DNA of 64,000 nt from an uncultured Coriobacteriaceae bacterium (lineage in GTDB: Bacteria; Actinomycetota; Coriobacteriia; Coriobacteriales; Atopobiaceae), in NCBI GenBank assembly GCA_902791035.1, contig CADAUA010000001.1, positions 186,001-250,000 on the forward strand. The letters are read 5' to 3'. Under the pieces are notes generated by a model, which did not search any database, was not told the origin of the DNA, and saw nothing but the letters and a program-made list of their open reading frames with translations. Position numbers and translations under genes: made by a program. Of this stretch, positions 93-10,658 are shown one piece after another. Position 1 is the first letter of the stretch; every line of letters begins with the position of its first letter.

Positions 93-3038
93 ATGGAAGA
101 CAAGGACTTCTCCACCCCGCTCCCCGAGCTCGCACCCGGCACGACGCACGAGGGCTTCACCGTGACGTCGGTGGAGCCGGTGGCCGAGCTCTCCGGCACC
201 GCCTACCTCATGCGCCACGACGCCACGGGCGCGCGCCTCCTCTGGCTCGCCTGCCCAGACACGAACAAGGCCTTCTCCATCGCCTTCAAGACGCCCCCGG
301 CAGACGACACCGGCACCTTCCACATCCTCGAGCACTCGGTCCTGTGCGGCTCGGACTCCTATCCCGTGAAGGAGCCCTTCGTCAACCTGCTCAAGACCTC
401 CATGCAGACCTTCCTCAACGCCCTCACCTATCCCGACAAGACCATCTATCCCGTGGCCTCCACGAACACCGCGGACCTCGAGAACCTCATGGGCGTCTAC
501 CTGGACGCCGTCCTCCACCCCGCCATCTACCACCGCCCCCGCATCTTCGAGCAGGAGGGCTGGCACTACGAGATGGCCGACGACGGCACCCTCGTGCGCA
601 ACGGCGTGGTCCTGAACGAGATGCGCGGCGCCCTCTCCGACCCCGACGAGGTCCTCTACCTGGAGCTCTGCCGCAGGCTCTTCCCCAGCACGGCCTACGG
701 CTTCGAGTCCGGCGGCCACCCCCGCGCCATCCCCACGCTCACCTACGAGAAGTTCCTGGACAACCACGCCCGCCACTACCAGCTGTCCAACAGCTACACC
801 GTCCTCTACGGCGACCTGGACATCGACCGCGAGCTGGCCTTCGTGGGCGAGCGCTTCGACGGCGCCGCCGACCGCCATGCCGGCGCGCCCAACCCGCTCG
901 ACCTGCAGGCCCCGGTTCTCGCGCCCCGCGCCACCGTCCGCATGGCCACCTCGCCCCAGAACGCCACCGCGGGCATCGCCTACGTGGCCGGCACGGCGAT
1001 GGAGCGCGAGAGGATGCTCGCGATCGAGATCCTGGTGGACGCCCTCACGGGATCCAACGAGGCTCCCCTCAAGCGCCGCATGCTCGACCTCGACCTGGCC
1101 GACGACTTCGTGGTGACCACCGTGGGCTCCTGCCTGCAGCCCCACGTGGTCTTCCAGCTCAAGGGGCTGCACCCCGGTGGTGCGGACCGCTTCCGCGCCG
1201 AGCTCGAGGGTGCCTGCCGCGAGCTCGCGGACGCCGGCATCCCGCGCGACAAGCTCTCCGCCTCGCTCGCCCAGGCCACCTTCAACCTGCGGGAAGGGGA
1301 CTTCGGCTATGCGGACGGCGTGGCCATGGCCACGCAGGTCATGTCCGGCTGGCTCTACGACGACGCCCACGCCCTCGACTACGTGCGCTACGAGGACGCC
1401 CTCGCACACATCCGGGCCAAGCTCGACAGCGGCTACTTCGAGCGGCTCCTGCTCGAGCTCGTGTGCGACAGCTCGCACAGCGCCGAGGTGGAGCTCGTGC
1501 CCACCGAGGCGGGCGACGCGGCCGAGGAGGCCGAGGAGCTTGCGACCAAGCTCGCCGCCATGGGCGAGAAGGACGTCCAGCACATCCGCGACGAGGTGGC
1601 AGCGCTCCGCGCCGAGCAGGAGGCCCCGGACTCCCCGGAGGACCTGGACAAGCTCCCCACGCTGGGCATAAGCGACATCGAGGACCCCGAGCCCGCGCCG
1701 GCGGCACCGCGCGTGGAGGCCCCGCTCCCCTGCGTGGCCCACGAGCTGGACACCCACGGGATCGACTACGTCTACCACTACTTCCCCCTCTCGCACGTGA
1801 CCTTCGACGAGCTCCCCTACGTGGGCGTGCTGGCCGAGCTCCTGAGCAAGCTCGACACCCAGGAGCACTCCGCCTCCGACCTCGACACCCTCATCGAGGA
1901 GCGCCTGGGCGGGCTGAGCTTCTTCACTGAGACCTACACCCGCGACGACGACCTCTCCTTCGCCCGGCCGACCTTCGTGGTGGGTGCCTCCGCCCTCAGC
2001 GAGAACGTGGACGCCCTGGCCCAGATCCCGCGCGAGGTGTGGGACCGGACGCTCTTCTCGGACACCGACTCCATGCGCGACATCCTCACCCAGGCGCGCA
2101 TCGGCATGGAGCAGTCCTTCACCAACTCCGGCCACTCCGCCGCCGCGGCACGCGCCGCGACCGGCATCTCCTCGGCGGCCATCGCCGCGGACCGCCTGGG
2201 AGGCGTGGACTACTACCTCTTCCTCAAGGACCTCCTCTCCAGCTGGGACGAGCGCGCCCAGGGACTGGGCAACAAGCTCGTCGACCTGGCAGGCCGCATC
2301 TTCACGAGCGACGGCGTGACGGTGAGCTTCACGGGGCCCGCCGAGGACCGCGCGCGCTTCTGGGCGCAGGGGGGCGACCTGGGCCTGGCCCCGGCTGCGG
2401 CCGAGCCCGCGGGGCTCGCGCTACCCACCCCCACACCGCGCCGCGAGGCCCTCGTCATCCCCTCCAACGTGAGCTTCGTCTGCCGCATGGCGTCCCCCTC
2501 CTCCCTGGACTCGGGCACCCCCGGCTCCTGGCAGGTAGCCACCCGTGCCCTCTCCTTCGACTACCTCTGGAACGAGGTCCGCGTTAAGGGCGGTGCCTAC
2601 GGCGTGGGCTTCCGCCGCGACTCCCAGGGTTCCCGCACCTTCTGGTCCTACCGCGACCCGAACGTGGACGCGACCTTCGGGCGCTACGACGGCGCTGCCG
2701 AGTGGCTGTCCCGGTGGGACCCCTCCGAGGACGAGTTCGCGGGCTACGTGGTCTCCACCGTGGCCGCGCACGACGCACCCGTCAAGCCGCGCGCCCTTGC
2801 CCGCAGGCAGGACGTCGCGTCCTTCTCTGGCCACGGGCCAAAGTGGCGCGACCAGGTGCGCGAGCAGGAGCTGGGCACCACACCCGCCCAGGTCCGCGCC
2901 ATGGCCGCCGCCCTCGCCGACGATACCGCGCCCCAGGCCGTCTGCGTCTTCGGCTCGGCCTCCGCTATAGCCGCGTCCTCCGTGGACTTCGAGGTCACGC
3001 ACCTGGTGGACGAACCGGCAGAGGACCCGGAGGCCTGA
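93..3038 (+). CDS. M16C insulinase-family zinc metalloprotease (presequence-protease-like)
   Basis: The product is a 981-residue peptidase of the insulinase superfamily, long M16C type (PreP/Cym1-like), which folds into a closed chamber and degrades short unfolded peptides, here presumably in the cytoplasm because no signal peptide is visible. The inverted zinc motif HILEH is at residues 77-81 and the probable third ligand is Glu176 in VVLNEMRG, about 95 residues downstream as expected. The length suits M16C proteins, which carry two M16 units in one chain. I chose ATG 93 over GTG 36 because GGAAGGA lies a few bases upstream of it. The stop codon overlaps the next start by one base, so the dehydratase-type gene may be translationally coupled. 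Family assignment is firm; the substrate is unknown. Confidence 0.9.
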   Translation: MEDKDFSTPLPELAPGTTHEGFTVTSVEPVAELSGTAYLMRHDATGARLLWLACPDTNKAFSIAFKTPPADDTGTFHILEHSVLCGSDSYPVKEPFVNLLKTSMQTFLNALTYPDKTIYPVASTNTADLENLMGVYLDAVLHPAIYHRPRIFEQEGWHYEMADDGTLVRNGVVLNEMRGALSDPDEVLYLELCRRLFPSTAYGFESGGHPRAIPTLTYEKFLDNHARHYQLSNSYTVLYGDLDIDRELAFVGERFDGAADRHAGAPNPLDLQAPVLAPRATVRMATSPQNATAGIAYVAGTAMERERMLAIEILVDALTGSNEAPLKRRMLDLDLADDFVVTTVGSCLQPHVVFQLKGLHPGGADRFRAELEGACRELADAGIPRDKLSASLAQATFNLREGDFGYADGVAMATQVMSGWLYDDAHALDYVRYEDALAHIRAKLDSGYFERLLLELVCDSSHSAEVELVPTEAGDAAEEAEELATKLAAMGEKDVQHIRDEVAALRAEQEAPDSPEDLDKLPTLGISDIEDPEPAPAAPRVEAPLPCVAHELDTHGIDYVYHYFPLSHVTFDELPYVGVLAELLSKLDTQEHSASDLDTLIEERLGGLSFFTETYTRDDDLSFARPTFVVGASALSENVDALAQIPREVWDRTLFSDTDSMRDILTQARIGMEQSFTNSGHSAAAARAATGISSAAIAADRLGGVDYYLFLKDLLSSWDERAQGLGNKLVDLAGRIFTSDGVTVSFTGPAEDRARFWAQGGDLGLAPAAAEPAGLALPTPTPRREALVIPSNVSFVCRMASPSSLDSGTPGSWQVATRALSFDYLWNEVRVKGGAYGVGFRRDSQGSRTFWSYRDPNVDATFGRYDGAAEWLSRWDPSEDEFAGYVVSTVAAHDAPVKPRALARRQDVASFSGHGPKWRDQVREQELGTTPAQVRAMAAALADDTAPQAVCVFGSASAIAASSVDFEVTHLVDEPAEDPEA

Positions 3039-4342
3039 TGGCCGGATTCGACGTAGTCAAGTGGTTTGGCGGGGTTGCCGACGGACACCTGGAGGGTAGC
3101 CCCGCCTTTACCCGCAACTGGCTCATGCTGGGCTACCAGCTGCAGCGCCTCAAGGTGCGCTACGTCCCCGACAAGGGCATATCCCCCTCCTTCGCCGAGG
3201 CCTACTGCCTCTTTATGGACTCGGTCGTGGGCGCCCAGGCCGACCTGGCCCACGCCGCCGTGGTGAGCATCTTCACCCCCTGCGAGATCTTCCATGCCAT
3301 GGGAGTCCGGCCCGTCACCGCCGAGGCCATCGGCGCCATAGCCGGAGGTGCCCAGGCGGAGTCCGGGCTCATAGCCCATGCAGAGGGTGCAGGCATCCCC
3401 CAGACCTACTGCTCCTACCACAAGATCCTCATGGGTCTCGCCGAATCCGGCGTCCTCCAGAGGCCCGGCTTCCTGGCCTGCACCTCCCCCGCCTGCGACG
3501 CGAACAACCTCACCTTCCGCGCCCTCGGCCAGCGCTGGGGCATGCCCCACACCTACATAGACGTTCCCACTGAGGTCTCGCGCGACTCCGTGGCCTACGT
3601 AGCAGACCAGCTCCGCGAGATGCAGACAGCTGCCGAGGACGCCTTCCACACCAGGGTGGTGCCCGAAGAGCTCCAGGCCTGTGTGCTCCGCTCCGACCAG
3701 ACCGACCAGGCCCTCCTCCGCTCCCTCCCCCTGCGGCGCGACCGCTACCTGGCCAACACCATGACCACCGACATGATGCTCATGCTGGACACCCACCTCT
3801 GCCTGGGCACCGAGCGCGCCGAGGCCCTGGCCCGCCACTCCCTGGCAGACCTCCAGGCCGCCCCCACCTACGACGGCCTTCGCCTCGTGTGGGCCCACGT
3901 CATGCCCTTCTACCTGGACGCCCTGGGCGACCACCTCAACGTGACCCAGGAGGCCCAGGTCGTGGCCTGCGACATGACCTTCGACCACCTGCCGCCGGAG
4001 GGTGGCGGGCTCTTCTCGCCAGACGAGCCCTATGAGTACATGGCCGAGCGCCTGGTGCGCAACTGCTTCAACGGGCCGGCGGAGCGCCGCGTGACCACCC
4101 TCAGGCGCCTGGCTGACGCCACCGACGCGGACGGCGTGGTCGTCTTCTGCCATTGGGGCTGCAAGCAGACGGCAGGTGCCGCCCAGCTCATCCGGTCCGG
4201 TCTCGAGGACGCCGGCTACCCGGTGCTGGTGCTCGACGGCGACGGCGTGGACCGGGAGAACACCAGCGTGGGCCAGACCTCCACGCGCTTTGCGGCCTTC
4301 CTGGAGCTCCTGCAGTCGCGTCGGGCGGGCGGCGCGGCCTAG
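3038..4342 (+). CDS. 2-hydroxyacyl-CoA dehydratase-type Fe-S subunit, full length
   Basis: This 434-residue protein resembles the HgdB/FldBC/BcrBC-type subunits of 2-hydroxyacyl-CoA dehydratases and benzoyl-CoA reductases, which hold an Fe-S cluster that receives an electron from an ATP-driven activator. Candidate cluster cysteines are Cys82 (TPCEIF), Cys125 (QTYCSYHK), and Cys371/Cys375 (VVFCHWGC), with CTSPACDANN at about 148-157. It starts one base inside the stop of the M16C gene. Downstream, beyond a nitroreductase on the other strand, lie an internally deleted paralog and a subunit-activator fusion, so all three probably serve one redox system. The substrate cannot be read from the sequence. 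Double-cubane cluster proteins of the same superfamily are an alternative identity. Confidence 0.8.
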   Translation: MAGFDVVKWFGGVADGHLEGSPAFTRNWLMLGYQLQRLKVRYVPDKGISPSFAEAYCLFMDSVVGAQADLAHAAVVSIFTPCEIFHAMGVRPVTAEAIGAIAGGAQAESGLIAHAEGAGIPQTYCSYHKILMGLAESGVLQRPGFLACTSPACDANNLTFRALGQRWGMPHTYIDVPTEVSRDSVAYVADQLREMQTAAEDAFHTRVVPEELQACVLRSDQTDQALLRSLPLRRDRYLANTMTTDMMLMLDTHLCLGTERAEALARHSLADLQAAPTYDGLRLVWAHVMPFYLDALGDHLNVTQEAQVVACDMTFDHLPPEGGGLFSPDEPYEYMAERLVRNCFNGPAERRVTTLRRLADATDADGVVVFCHWGCKQTAGAAQLIRSGLEDAGYPVLVLDGDGVDRENTSVGQTSTRFAAFLELLQSRRAGGAA

Positions 4343-4346
4343 CGCT

Positions 4347-4937
4347 CTACCCGACGAGAAGGTCGTCCACCCCCAGCTTGGGCACGTGGTGGCAGGTGCC
4401 CTCACGCCAGTAGGCCACCTTGCCGGGAGCCCCCTCCTCGAGCACGACCCGCTCGTCTGCCGCCGGCCAGCCGAGCGCCAGGAGCACCAGGCACTCGTAG
4501 CCCTTCTGGGCCACGCCCAGCACCTCGTCGAGCCCGGCGTCATAGCTCTTGATCATGCAGCCCACGAGGCCGCGCGATCGGGCGTCGAGCATGATCGTCT
4601 GCGCCGCTATGCCGGCATCGAGGATGCGGATGGGGAGCTTGGAGGCGCCGGTCGGCGCGCAGACGGCGATGTAGGCCGTGGGCTTCTCGCCCTCGGCAGG
4701 CCCGTCCCAGTCCGCAAGCAGGGCCGCCCAGTGGTGGTGCGACTCGACCTCCAGCGCCTTGGCGGGGTCGGCCACCAGGGCGAAGCGCAGGGTCTGCGTG
4801 TTGTTGCCCGTAGGGGCAAAGCGGGCCACGTCCACGAGTCCCCGCAGCACGTCCTGGCCCACCGGCCGCGTCCCGTCGAAGCGCCGGTAGCTCCGCGAGT
4901 CCCTCACCAGTGCCGCAAGGTCCTTCTCTTCCGCCAT
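4347..4937 (-). CDS. Nitroreductase-family flavoprotein
   Basis: The 196-residue product is a small FMN-dependent nitroreductase-fold oxidoreductase. The N-terminal RSYRRFDGTRPV and RFAPTGNNTQT segments are the usual FMN-phosphate contacts, and the LDAGIAAQTIMLDARSRGLVGC helix followed by a lengthened C-terminal tail is typical of anaerobe members. ATG 4937 is preceded by GAGGAGG with good spacing. It lies antisense between two dehydratase-type genes, ending five bases from the stop of the upstream one. It may recycle flavin or NAD(P)H for that module, but this is inference from position only. Confidence 0.85.
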   Translation of the reverse strand: MAEEKDLAALVRDSRSYRRFDGTRPVGQDVLRGLVDVARFAPTGNNTQTLRFALVADPAKALEVESHHHWAALLADWDGPAEGEKPTAYIAVCAPTGASKLPIRILDAGIAAQTIMLDARSRGLVGCMIKSYDAGLDEVLGVAQKGYECLVLLALGWPAADERVVLEEGAPGKVAYWREGTCHHVPKLGVDDLLVG

Positions 4938-5136
4938 GATTGCCTCCTCGGGTCGCAGGGTATGGTCTGTTGAGCCTTTGTTTGTTTTTGACCGCGATTC
5001 AATACTTGTCTGACCCATGCTAGAGTTTACTAGCCTCGCCTGGGTTGAGGAGCCTTCCCGGACAAGTGCAAACCGCGAGAAACTTCTTTCGACTTGGCGG
5101 TCGGTAGCCCACGAGGGAGGTCGGGTCAGCTTGCCA

Positions 5137-5949
5137 ATGGACACCACGCCCGTGCTCGACTGGTATGGCGGCCTTCTCTCCGATCACGTGGCCGACGCGC
5201 CCGAGGCGGTGCGCGGCTGGCTGCACCTAGGCTTCGACCTCAAGCGCACCCAGACCGAGCTGGCCCCCAACCGGGCCTACCTGCCCTCTGGCCGAATGGC
5301 CGCCCGCATGGCCCTCCAGTCCGTGACGCGGGCTCTGGACGACTACGGCCATGCCGTGATCACGAGTATCTTCCTCCCCAGCGAACCCTTCCTGGCCCTG
5401 GGAACCCCGGAGACACTGGCTATGGCCCAGCAGCTGGGGCGCGACCTGGCGCGGGCGCGGGCGCACGAGGGTCTCTCCCTGGTGTGGGCCCACATCCCGC
5501 CCTTCTTCCTGCGGGGCCTGCGCGACCATCTGGACCTGACCCAGGAGGCGCAGATCGTGGCATCGGACATGGTCTTCGACCAGGTGGGGCCCGCGCCGCC
5601 CGCCTATGGGCCCGACCAGCCCTTCGAGGCCCTGGCCGAGCGCATGCTCCGCAACAGCTTCAACGGCTCGGCCACCCGTCGGGCGGACCGCCTGTCCTGG
5701 CTGGCCCGCCAGACCCGGGCAGACGGCGCCGTGGTCTTCTGCCACTGGGGCTGCAAGGAGACCGCCGGGGCCTCTCAGTTCATCGCCCGCCGCCTGGAGG
5801 CGGAGGGGGTGCCCACGCTCGTGCTGGACGGGGACGGCTGCGAGCGCGCCAACTGCATGGAGGGCCAGATGACCACACGCTTCGACGCGTTTCTCGAGAT
5901 GCTGCGCGACCGTCGCGCACGCAGTCAGGAGGGAGTCAGCGATGTCTGA
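5137..5949 (+). CDS. Internally deleted 2-hydroxyacyl-CoA dehydratase paralog lacking Fe-S ligands
   Basis: The 270-residue protein aligns at both ends with the 434-residue subunit encoded at 3038-4342. Residues 1-95 match its N terminus, and residues from about 96 match its region from about 262 onward (LVWAHIPPFF against LVWAHVMPFY; FCHWGCKETAG against FCHWGCKQTAG). The roughly 165 residues between are missing, taking the Cys125 and CTSPACD regions with them, and the first ligand Cys82 is replaced by Ser82 (LPSEPF). It therefore probably cannot bind the usual cluster, yet the reading frame is intact. The stop overlaps the next gene by eight bases, indicating coupled expression. TTG 5131 is an alternative start better spaced from GGGAGG at 5115-5120. 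Confidence 0.75.
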   Translation: MDTTPVLDWYGGLLSDHVADAPEAVRGWLHLGFDLKRTQTELAPNRAYLPSGRMAARMALQSVTRALDDYGHAVITSIFLPSEPFLALGTPETLAMAQQLGRDLARARAHEGLSLVWAHIPPFFLRGLRDHLDLTQEAQIVASDMVFDQVGPAPPAYGPDQPFEALAERMLRNSFNGSATRRADRLSWLARQTRADGAVVFCHWGCKETAGASQFIARRLEAEGVPTLVLDGDGCERANCMEGQMTTRFDAFLEMLRDRRARSQEGVSDV

Positions 5950-7747
5950 GACACCTGCGGGCCACACCGTCTTCTACGCCTGTAAGTACACGCCGGTTGA
6001 GCTCCTGGCCGGCTTCGGGGCCAGGTGCGAGCTTGCGGAGGCCGACGTCTCCAGCTTCGACCAGGCGGACAGCCTGGCCCACCCCAACCTCTGTGGCTAC
6101 GGCAAGGGGCTGATCGAGCGGCTCCTGGCGCCCGACGTGCACGAGGTCGTGCTCGTGACCTGCTGTGACGTTGTCAAGCGTGCCTATGACGTCCTGCGCG
6201 AGCAGGGCGGGCTCGACTTCTGCTTCCTCCTGGACCTGCCCCACAAGCGCGGCAAGGCCGAGCGGCGGCTCTTCCGCACGCGCCTGGCCCGGCTCGCGGA
6301 GGAGTACGCCGCCTACAGCGGGCTCAGCTTCGACGTGGGTCGCGCTCTGGCCTCCTTCCAGCCGCCGCTCCCCCGCACCGACGACCGCGTGACCCTCCTG
6401 GGCGCCCACGCCACGCGGGCCCTTCTCTCCGACGTGGGCCAGGGACTGGCCCTGCCCGTGGAGAACGCCACCTGCACGGGGCCCCGCCAGCTGGCCTCGC
6501 CTCCGGCGGCCCTGGCGCGCATGGCGCCCACGGGCACCTGCGACTCCTGCGAGGACCCCACGGACACCCTGGGCACCTCTCGCATGGGCGGCACGCTCGA
6601 CACCTTCCTGGACTGGTACGCGGGCGCCCTCCTGGACCAGATGCCCTGCATGCGGATGGACGACGTGGACCGCCGCCAGGACCTGATAGGCGCCCGCGGC
6701 CAGCAGGGCGTGATCTACCACACGATGAAGTTCTGCGACTACTACGGCTTCGAGTACGCCGAGGCCTCGGCCAACGAGGGGGTTCCCATGGTAAAGATAG
6801 AGACGGACGGCACCTCCCAGAGCTCGGGACAGCTGCGCACGCGCCTTGCCGCCTTCGGCGAGACCCTGCGCGGCAGGCGGCAGTCCCAGGAGGGCGACGG
6901 CGAGAAGCCCGAGGCCGCCCCGGATCACGCCACCACGGGCCACGCCACCGTGGGCAGGAGGGGCCCGACCGCCACCTACGTGCTGGGCGTGGACTCCGGC
7001 TCCACCTCCACGGACGCCGTGATCGTGGACGGGCGGGGCGGGGTCGTCTCCCAGGTGATCCTGCCCACGGGCGCCAAGGCGACCACGGCCGCCGCCAAAG
7101 CCATCCAAGAGGTGCTGGACCAGGCGGGACTGGCCGACTCCGACCTCAGCCTGCGGGTCTCCACCGGCTACGGCCGAGACGCCATCCCCGGCATGGACAC
7201 CTCCATCACGGAGATCACCTGCCACGCCCGGGGAGCGCACGCGCTTGTTCCCAGCGCGCGCACCGTCATCGACATCGGCGGGCAGGACTCCAAGGTCATC
7301 CACCTCTCGCCCAAGGGCGAGGTCCTGAGCTTCGTGATGAACGACAAGTGCGCGGCAGGCACCGGACGCTTCCTGGAGATGATGGCCTCCACGCTGGAGC
7401 TCCCGCTCGACGAGTTCTGCCGGGTGGGGCTGGGGTGGAAGCACGACGTGCGGATCTCCAGCATGTGCACCGTCTTTGCCCAGAGCGAGGTCGTCTCGCT
7501 CGTGGCGGACGACACCCCCACGGCCGACATCGTCCACGGGCTGTCCGAGTCCGTGGCCCGCAAGACCGCCTCGCTGGCCAAGCGAGTGAACGCCGAGCCG
7601 CCCTACCTCATGACGGGCGGCGTGGCGCAGAACGAGGGCGTCGTGGCCGCGCTCACCAGCGTCCTGGGCTCCCCGGTGGCCACGAACCCCGACTCCCAGC
7701 TCTGCGGTGCCATAGGTGCGGCCCTCCTGGGCCTCGAGTCGCTCTAG
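5942..7747 (+). CDS. Fusion of a dehydratase-type Fe-S subunit with an ASKHA ATPase activator
   Basis: Residues 1 to about 315 form a second dehydratase-type subunit with CKYTPVEL (Cys14), HPNLCGY (Cys51), TCCDVVKR (Cys74/75) and MKFCDYYGFE (Cys265), the positions where this family carries Fe-S ligands. A low-complexity linker (about 316-345) leads to an activator of the HgdC/BcrAD-BadFG type. DSGSTSTDA at 351-359 is the ASKHA phosphate-binding loop; Cys470 (KCAAGTGRF) and Cys509 (SMCTVFAQSE) would supply the 4Fe-4S cluster bridging the dimer. In characterised systems a separate activator hydrolyses ATP to fire an electron into the dehydratase; here electron donor and acceptor share one chain. 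The start overlaps the preceding ORF by eight bases. Confidence 0.85.
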   Translation: MSETPAGHTVFYACKYTPVELLAGFGARCELAEADVSSFDQADSLAHPNLCGYGKGLIERLLAPDVHEVVLVTCCDVVKRAYDVLREQGGLDFCFLLDLPHKRGKAERRLFRTRLARLAEEYAAYSGLSFDVGRALASFQPPLPRTDDRVTLLGAHATRALLSDVGQGLALPVENATCTGPRQLASPPAALARMAPTGTCDSCEDPTDTLGTSRMGGTLDTFLDWYAGALLDQMPCMRMDDVDRRQDLIGARGQQGVIYHTMKFCDYYGFEYAEASANEGVPMVKIETDGTSQSSGQLRTRLAAFGETLRGRRQSQEGDGEKPEAAPDHATTGHATVGRRGPTATYVLGVDSGSTSTDAVIVDGRGGVVSQVILPTGAKATTAAAKAIQEVLDQAGLADSDLSLRVSTGYGRDAIPGMDTSITEITCHARGAHALVPSARTVIDIGGQDSKVIHLSPKGEVLSFVMNDKCAAGTGRFLEMMASTLELPLDEFCRVGLGWKHDVRISSMCTVFAQSEVVSLVADDTPTADIVHGLSESVARKTASLAKRVNAEPPYLMTGGVAQNEGVVAALTSVLGSPVATNPDSQLCGAIGAALLGLESL

Positions 7748-7776: not shown

Positions 7777-7915
7777 GGACGCTTAGCCGGGGCTAAGCGG
7801 GACACCCTTCCCGGCCCGGGAAACCCGGGACGCTTAGCCGGGGCTAAGCGGGGCACCCTTCCCGGCCCGGGAAACCCGGGACGCTTAGGCCCGCCTAAGC
7901 GGCCCATCCTTCCCG
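7777..7915. repeat. Three 51-bp units with covarying palindromes
   Basis: A 51-bp unit recurs at 7777, 7828 and 7879 (last copy partial), starting 30 bases after the stop of the dehydratase fusion. Each unit has a palindrome (GCTTAGCCGGGGCTAAGC at 7781-7798 and 7832-7849) and a second one, TTCCCGGCCCGGGAA. In the third unit the first palindrome becomes GCTTAGGCCCGCCTAAGC (7883-7900): both arms changed together, so pairing is preserved. A related sequence lies at 10582-10600. The rest of 7748-8172 has no gene; it holds these repeats and the nrdD promoter region. Confidence 0.85.
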
Positions 7916-10578: not shown

Positions 10579-10658
10579 GTCACGCTTATCCGGGCCTAAG
10601 CGTGGCCGCACGCTCGGGCTTGGGCCACCAGCCACGGATAGCCACGGGTAAGCGTGAC
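10579..10658. repeat. Inverted repeat GTCACGCTTA / TAAGCGTGAC
   Basis: Ten-base arms at 10579-10588 and 10649-10658 are perfect inverted copies. Inside, CGCTTA-N8-TAAGCG (10582-10601) resembles the GCTTAG..CTAAGC palindrome of the 51-bp repeats at 7777. The element sits 45 bases beyond the hydrolase stop (10703, other strand), so it lies between two convergent genes and may end transcription from either side. Confidence 0.55.

Follow-up and report, generated by a model that had tools for sequence, protein, structure and literature searches.

Class I benzoyl-CoA reductases (BzdNO/BzdPQ and MbdONPQ) are four-gene systems that combine a catalytic subunit carrying a three-cysteine [4Fe-4S] cluster with a double-cubane subunit and a BadF-type ATPase. 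In BzdO the [4Fe-4S] cluster is held by Cys95, Cys128, and Cys380 together with a water or hydroxide, and Glu65 is catalytic; in BzdN the double cubane has six ligands, Cys36, Cys73, Cys100, Cys263, Cys293, and Cys327 (PMC11971306). DCCP/DCCP-R (6ENO, 7YYL) likewise has a cognate ATPase, and 2-hydroxyisocaproyl-CoA dehydratase joins HadBC to the activase HadI.

The window analyzed here (64,000 nucleotides from an uncultured Coriobacteriaceae bacterium) encodes a module, genes A and C, that can be set beside each of these systems. Specifically, i) A resembles BzdO and the N-terminal domain of C resembles BzdN, but there are two genes instead of four, a single chain holds both the ATPase and the double-cubane-type domain, and the BzdO His131 base is apparently not conserved in A; ii) all six cysteine positions of DCCP have aligned counterparts in C, but the domain in C has no N-terminal lobe, is about 90 residues shorter in its middle part, shares a chain with the ATPase, is accompanied by a separate [4Fe-4S] partner, A, and reaches 57.4 of the 350 bits required by the DCCP equivalog NF040772 (A 54.6, B 31.3), so that C would resemble DCCP in working mode while falling outside the equivalog; and iii) HadB is the best fold match of A and the activase domain of C is HadI-like, but a double-cubane-type domain takes the place of a HadC-type partner, the activase is fused, and scores lie under the HadB and HadC equivalog cut-offs. 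By analogy, A-C might be described as a class I benzoyl-CoA reductase condensed to two genes, or as HadBC-HadI with a double-cubane-type partner. All scores against the Bcr, Bzd, HadB, and HadC equivalog models are far under cut-off and, because every named-enzyme cut-off failed, the A-C module is assignable to the superfamily only.

Layout and distribution of the locus

A sequence-only reading of this DNA had proposed a dehydratase-type module, and a BCR/HAD-type ATP-dependent Fe-S module is indeed present. The lengths and coordinates of A (434 aa), B (270 aa), and C (601 aa) were verified (Table 1). A genome search finds HGD-D matches in these proteins only, with PF06050 scores of 200.6, 104.3, and 106.7 bits for A, B, and C, all above the curated cut-off of 28.4. 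The ATG of A overlaps the TGA of an upstream M16 peptidase-like gene. As the sequence-only reading held, B overlaps the next gene, sharing its last 8 nt (ATGTCTGA) with the start of C, and we infer that the two are likely to be translationally coupled; translation of B may in fact begin at a TTG at 5131.

Table 1. Features of the A-B-C locus (positions in the window)
Feature	Position	Strand	Evidence
Gene A, HadB/BzdO-like HGD-D subunit (predicted)	3038..4342	+	PF06050 E 6.6e-59; profile vs PDB; AlphaFold model; invariant residues
Nitroreductase-like gene between A and B (predicted; named by sight)	4347..4937	-	ORF; synteny
Gene B, 270-aa internally deleted paralog	5137..5949	+	alignment; model; tree
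Deletion junction in B, CTGGCCCTGGGAACC (LALGT)	5392..5406	+	direct repeats flanking lost 504 nt in full-length orthologs
B stop / C start overlap, 8 nt	5942..5949	+	sequence; comparable A/C overlaps in many relatives
Gene C N-terminal domain, compact HGD-D with six-Cys double-cubane pattern	5942..6946	+	43/43 conserved; DCCP alignment
Gene C C-terminal domain, BadF/HgdC-type activase ATPase	6977..7747	+	TIGR00241 7.8e-72; HadI, HgdC matches

The minus-strand nitroreductase-like gene that parts A from B went unmentioned in the sequence-only reading; it lies between A and B-C here and 3′ of C in relatives. Given this displacement the locus is rearranged, perhaps by a larger duplication followed by several losses. 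A consensus promoter search gave no match, the consensus being of little use in a GC-rich genome. Palindromic REP-like repeats (ACGCTTAGCCGGGGCTAAGCGG) occur at 7779-7800, 7830-7851, and 10582-10603, where none is expected by chance; the two copies lying between C and nrdD are perfect, and the third has 3 mismatches.

To judge by its relatives, the window belongs to the Atopobiaceae (Coriobacteriia). A-type genes are found in 42 of 140 genomes of the family, and our genome collection places relatives in Atopobiaceae, Lachnospiraceae, Erysipelotrichaceae, and other Clostridia. Nearly every relative encodes A and then C, the stop of A overlapping the start of C in many of them. The gene order in Atopobiaceae is M16 peptidase, A, C, often followed by a minus-strand nitroreductase and nrdD; these are the only neighbors shared within the family and have no obvious functional tie, A-C loci of Firmicutes have no conserved neighbor genes, and nothing in either neighborhood points to the substrate of A-C. 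The two-gene A-C enzyme is widespread in gut bacteria and appears to be uncharacterized. In three Firmicutes loci (L107:8441-9999, L098:8207-10165, and L109:4786-6494) C apparently spans two frames, the break falling between the domains or inside one of them, which could reflect natural fission, a frameshift, or assembly error. A further HGD-D gene of a relative (G120:C3:118270-119096) has an internal TAG stop and a change of frame and is probably a pseudogene.

The catalytic-type subunit A and the fusion protein C

Compared with PDB, the family profile of A matches BzdO best (1.8e-19) and then HadB (2.6e-16), and the AlphaFold model of A (pLDDT 92.8) has HadB, MbdO, and BzdO as its top fold matches, ahead of any relay subunit. 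Glu96, Cys125, Cys153, and Cys375 of A are invariant in 38 family members and correspond to BzdO Glu65, Cys95, Cys128, and Cys380, respectively, although the HMM alignment of Cys153 with Cys128 is off by one residue and this pairing relies on the HadB register. The three-Cys ligand set of a catalytic [4Fe-4S] cluster is complete in A, which is predicted to be a HadB/BzdO-like [4Fe-4S] catalytic subunit.

C is a fusion, overlooked in the sequence-only reading, of a compact HGD-D domain (residues 1-310) with an activase ATPase (residues 346-601). Seven cysteines of the N-terminal domain are kept in every one of 43 relatives, and six of these seven (14, 51, 75, 178, 236, and 265) align by profile with those of DCCP (6ENO/7YYL, E about 2e-20). 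As this six-Cys pattern matches both DCCP and BzdN, the N-terminal domain of C probably binds an [8Fe-9S]-type cluster, which would put cluster and ATPase on one polypeptide. The activase domain also matches HadI (3e-61) and HgdC (1HUX, 4.1e-60), and Cys470 and Cys509 of C align with positions 127 and 166 of 1HUX, which we take to be the cluster ligands of HgdC. No description of a fused double-cubane/activase protein was found in the literature searched, which was largely without subscription papers, two key DCCP papers among them, and we provisionally regard the fusion as undescribed.

Origin of the internally deleted paralog B

B aligns with both ends of A (residues 1-85 and 254-434) in an intact frame, and the internal loss, put at about 165 residues in the sequence-only reading, measures 168 codons, equivalent to residues 86-253 of A; no stop or frameshift interrupts the 270 codons that remain. 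The deletion took the Cys125 and Cys153 columns together with the catalytic-type Glu96, leaving an incomplete ligand set in which Cys206 (the equivalent of Cys375) stands alone, and the cluster loop CHWGCK is perfectly preserved despite the missing partner ligands. Lacking the Glu and all but one of the three ligands, B is unable to carry the cluster of A. In the B model (pLDDT 85.6 overall) the N-terminal helices and the C-terminal domain are folded, while the first strand, left orphaned, is gone and residues 80-85 at the junction have pLDDT <50. Of 64 conserved columns, 2 are altered in B, and the full-length copies show no fewer, so the sequence that B retains has not decayed.

Four Atopobiaceae genomes (L065 to L068, including Olsenella porci) carry two full-length tandem A-type genes before C, in the order B′-A′-C. 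In an IQ-TREE phylogeny restricted to the columns that B retains, B groups with the full-length B′ copies (support 99/92) and A groups with the other copies; the terminal branch of B (0.44, versus 0.71 for A) is unexceptional in length. Cys125, Cys153, and Cys375 are kept in all four B′ proteins, in which residue 82 is Ser in three and Asn in one. We conclude that B and B′ are orthologs. The finding of full-length orthologs at this locus largely matches what the sequence-only reading had said would count against it, namely full-length homologs in close relatives as a sign of a recent deletion. A conserved extra cysteine, Cys371, is missing from one copy in two of the tandem-copy species (L066:7224-8534 and L068:4704-6029), replaced by Val in O. 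porci B′ and by Ser in RUG001 A′, which hints at divergence of the duplicates.

A second deleted copy was found neither among 140 genomes of the family nor among 299 of the order, where the source genus is represented by one genome; the only contiguous match to residues 1-270 is the window's own B. Seemingly short hits, L091 and L101 among them, turned out on inspection to be full-length proteins that had been partly matched.

The B′ copies also settle the standing of residue 82, where the sequence-only reading had contrasted Ser82 in B with a ligand Cys82 in A. The residues are as described, but Cys82 is no ligand: among 52 relatives the column holds Asn in 23, Cys in 16, Ser in 9, and Thr in 4, it aligns with Gln41 of HadB, and the ligands proper occupy the columns of Cys125, Cys153, and Cys375. 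Ser82 as a lost ligand is ruled out by this variability and by the HadB register, and also because full-length orthologs with Ser82 retain all three ligands. Since three full-length B′ proteins already have Ser82, the substitution is older than the deletion and compatible with a complete ligand set. The sequence-only reading is right that B is unfit to hold the usual cluster, though not owing to Ser82. Ser77 is the residue that motif register assigns to the double-cubane first-ligand column (Cys14 in C); A and B both have it, and the position is Ser in all A-type proteins aligned.

Across its junction (5392-5406), B encodes FLALGT. The B′ counterparts have FLA[LM]G or FLSMG at the left breakpoint and HLA[LM]G or HLWLG at the right, and in three of the four B′ genes these short LA[LM]G-like direct repeats are spaced exactly 504 nt, matching the length deleted from B. 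L067 carries a perfect 11-nt repeat (CTGGCCATGGG), which places it among the top 2 of 10,906 in-frame pairs spaced similarly, and in L068 the junction ranks best of 819 positions at 504-nt spacing; the match is weaker in L065 (rank 12 of 804) and weak in L066 (rank 20 of 786), which has a spacing of 510 nt. One event, either slippage or recombination at these short repeats, accounts for B.

Fate of B and significance of the A-C module

We think it likely that A and C together form a two-gene ATP-driven low-potential enzyme and that B is a recent deletion derivative of a tandem duplicate of A whose frame leads into C. The enzyme would belong to the benzoyl-CoA reductase / 2-hydroxyacyl-CoA dehydratase superfamily and act as a reductase or a dehydratase. 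Its activase part in C would act as an ATPase dimer with a bridging [4Fe-4S] cluster, ATP would drive an electron onto the double-cubane-type cluster in the N-terminal part of the same chain, the electron would then pass to the three-Cys [4Fe-4S] cluster of A, adjoining Glu96, and the substrate at A, probably a CoA-thioester, would be reduced or dehydrated. B would have arisen by tandem duplication of A, and a single in-frame deletion, with short direct repeats at its ends, would then have removed its core. That the frame has stayed open would be due most likely to the young age of the deletion and to the way B runs on into the start of C. With the nitroreductase gene now parting A from C, B may also have taken over as leader gene for C, which would be an added reason.

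The sequence-only reading had instead cast B as a structural or regulatory partner. As a conserved subunit B finds no support, because B′ is full-length with its ligands, the relatives having full-length orthologs at the locus, and the 140 family and 299 order genomes yielded no other deleted copy. In a narrower form, B might be a retained cluster-free subunit that, through its N-terminal helices and intact C-terminal alpha/beta domain, binds to C or A and tunes the complex, and several observations would suit it: an open frame lying 5′ of C and overlapping it, few changes in conserved columns, no relaxation of the retained part, an ordinary branch length, and a model in which both kept parts are folded. 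We nevertheless consider such a subunit unlikely, as B is confined to one genome, the modeled junction is poor and the first strand lost, and an intact CHWGCK without partner ligands suggests recency over a new role. The breakpoint repeats mark a likely spot for slippage or for misassembly collapse, and this, with the lack of any deleted homolog elsewhere, would also fit an assembly artifact or a strain-level deletion in a species that normally has full-length B. We hold this to be distinctly unlikely; an artifact in particular would have to be reconciled with repeats so short (about 11 nt) that most assemblers would not be misled by them, and with a locus lying on a 441-kb contig in a 99%-complete genome.

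It is harder still to credit that B is a pseudogene relic, already without a protein and open by chance: the catalytic core is gone, but a relic would hardly be expected to run uninterrupted through all its codons without loss of conserved residues, and we regard this as the least probable course. Very doubtful as well, though a little less so, is a broader scheme in which A-C would be a compact uncharacterized class with a double-cubane relay fused to the ATPase, lineage-specific duplicates B′ and A′ would share one C, and B would serve as a cluster-free tuner.

B is thus most likely a recently deleted paralog with a frame still leading into C, and as such a minor evolutionary event, an ordinary in-frame deletion of a paralog; the fused A-C module is the more interesting finding. 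Few double-cubane enzymes, which work at unusually low potentials, have been characterized, and here, in a conserved two-gene module of rumen and gut anaerobes, a domain of this rare double-cubane type shares one chain with the ATPase expected to drive it. A relay and motor joined in this way would make ATP-driven electron transfer easier to study.
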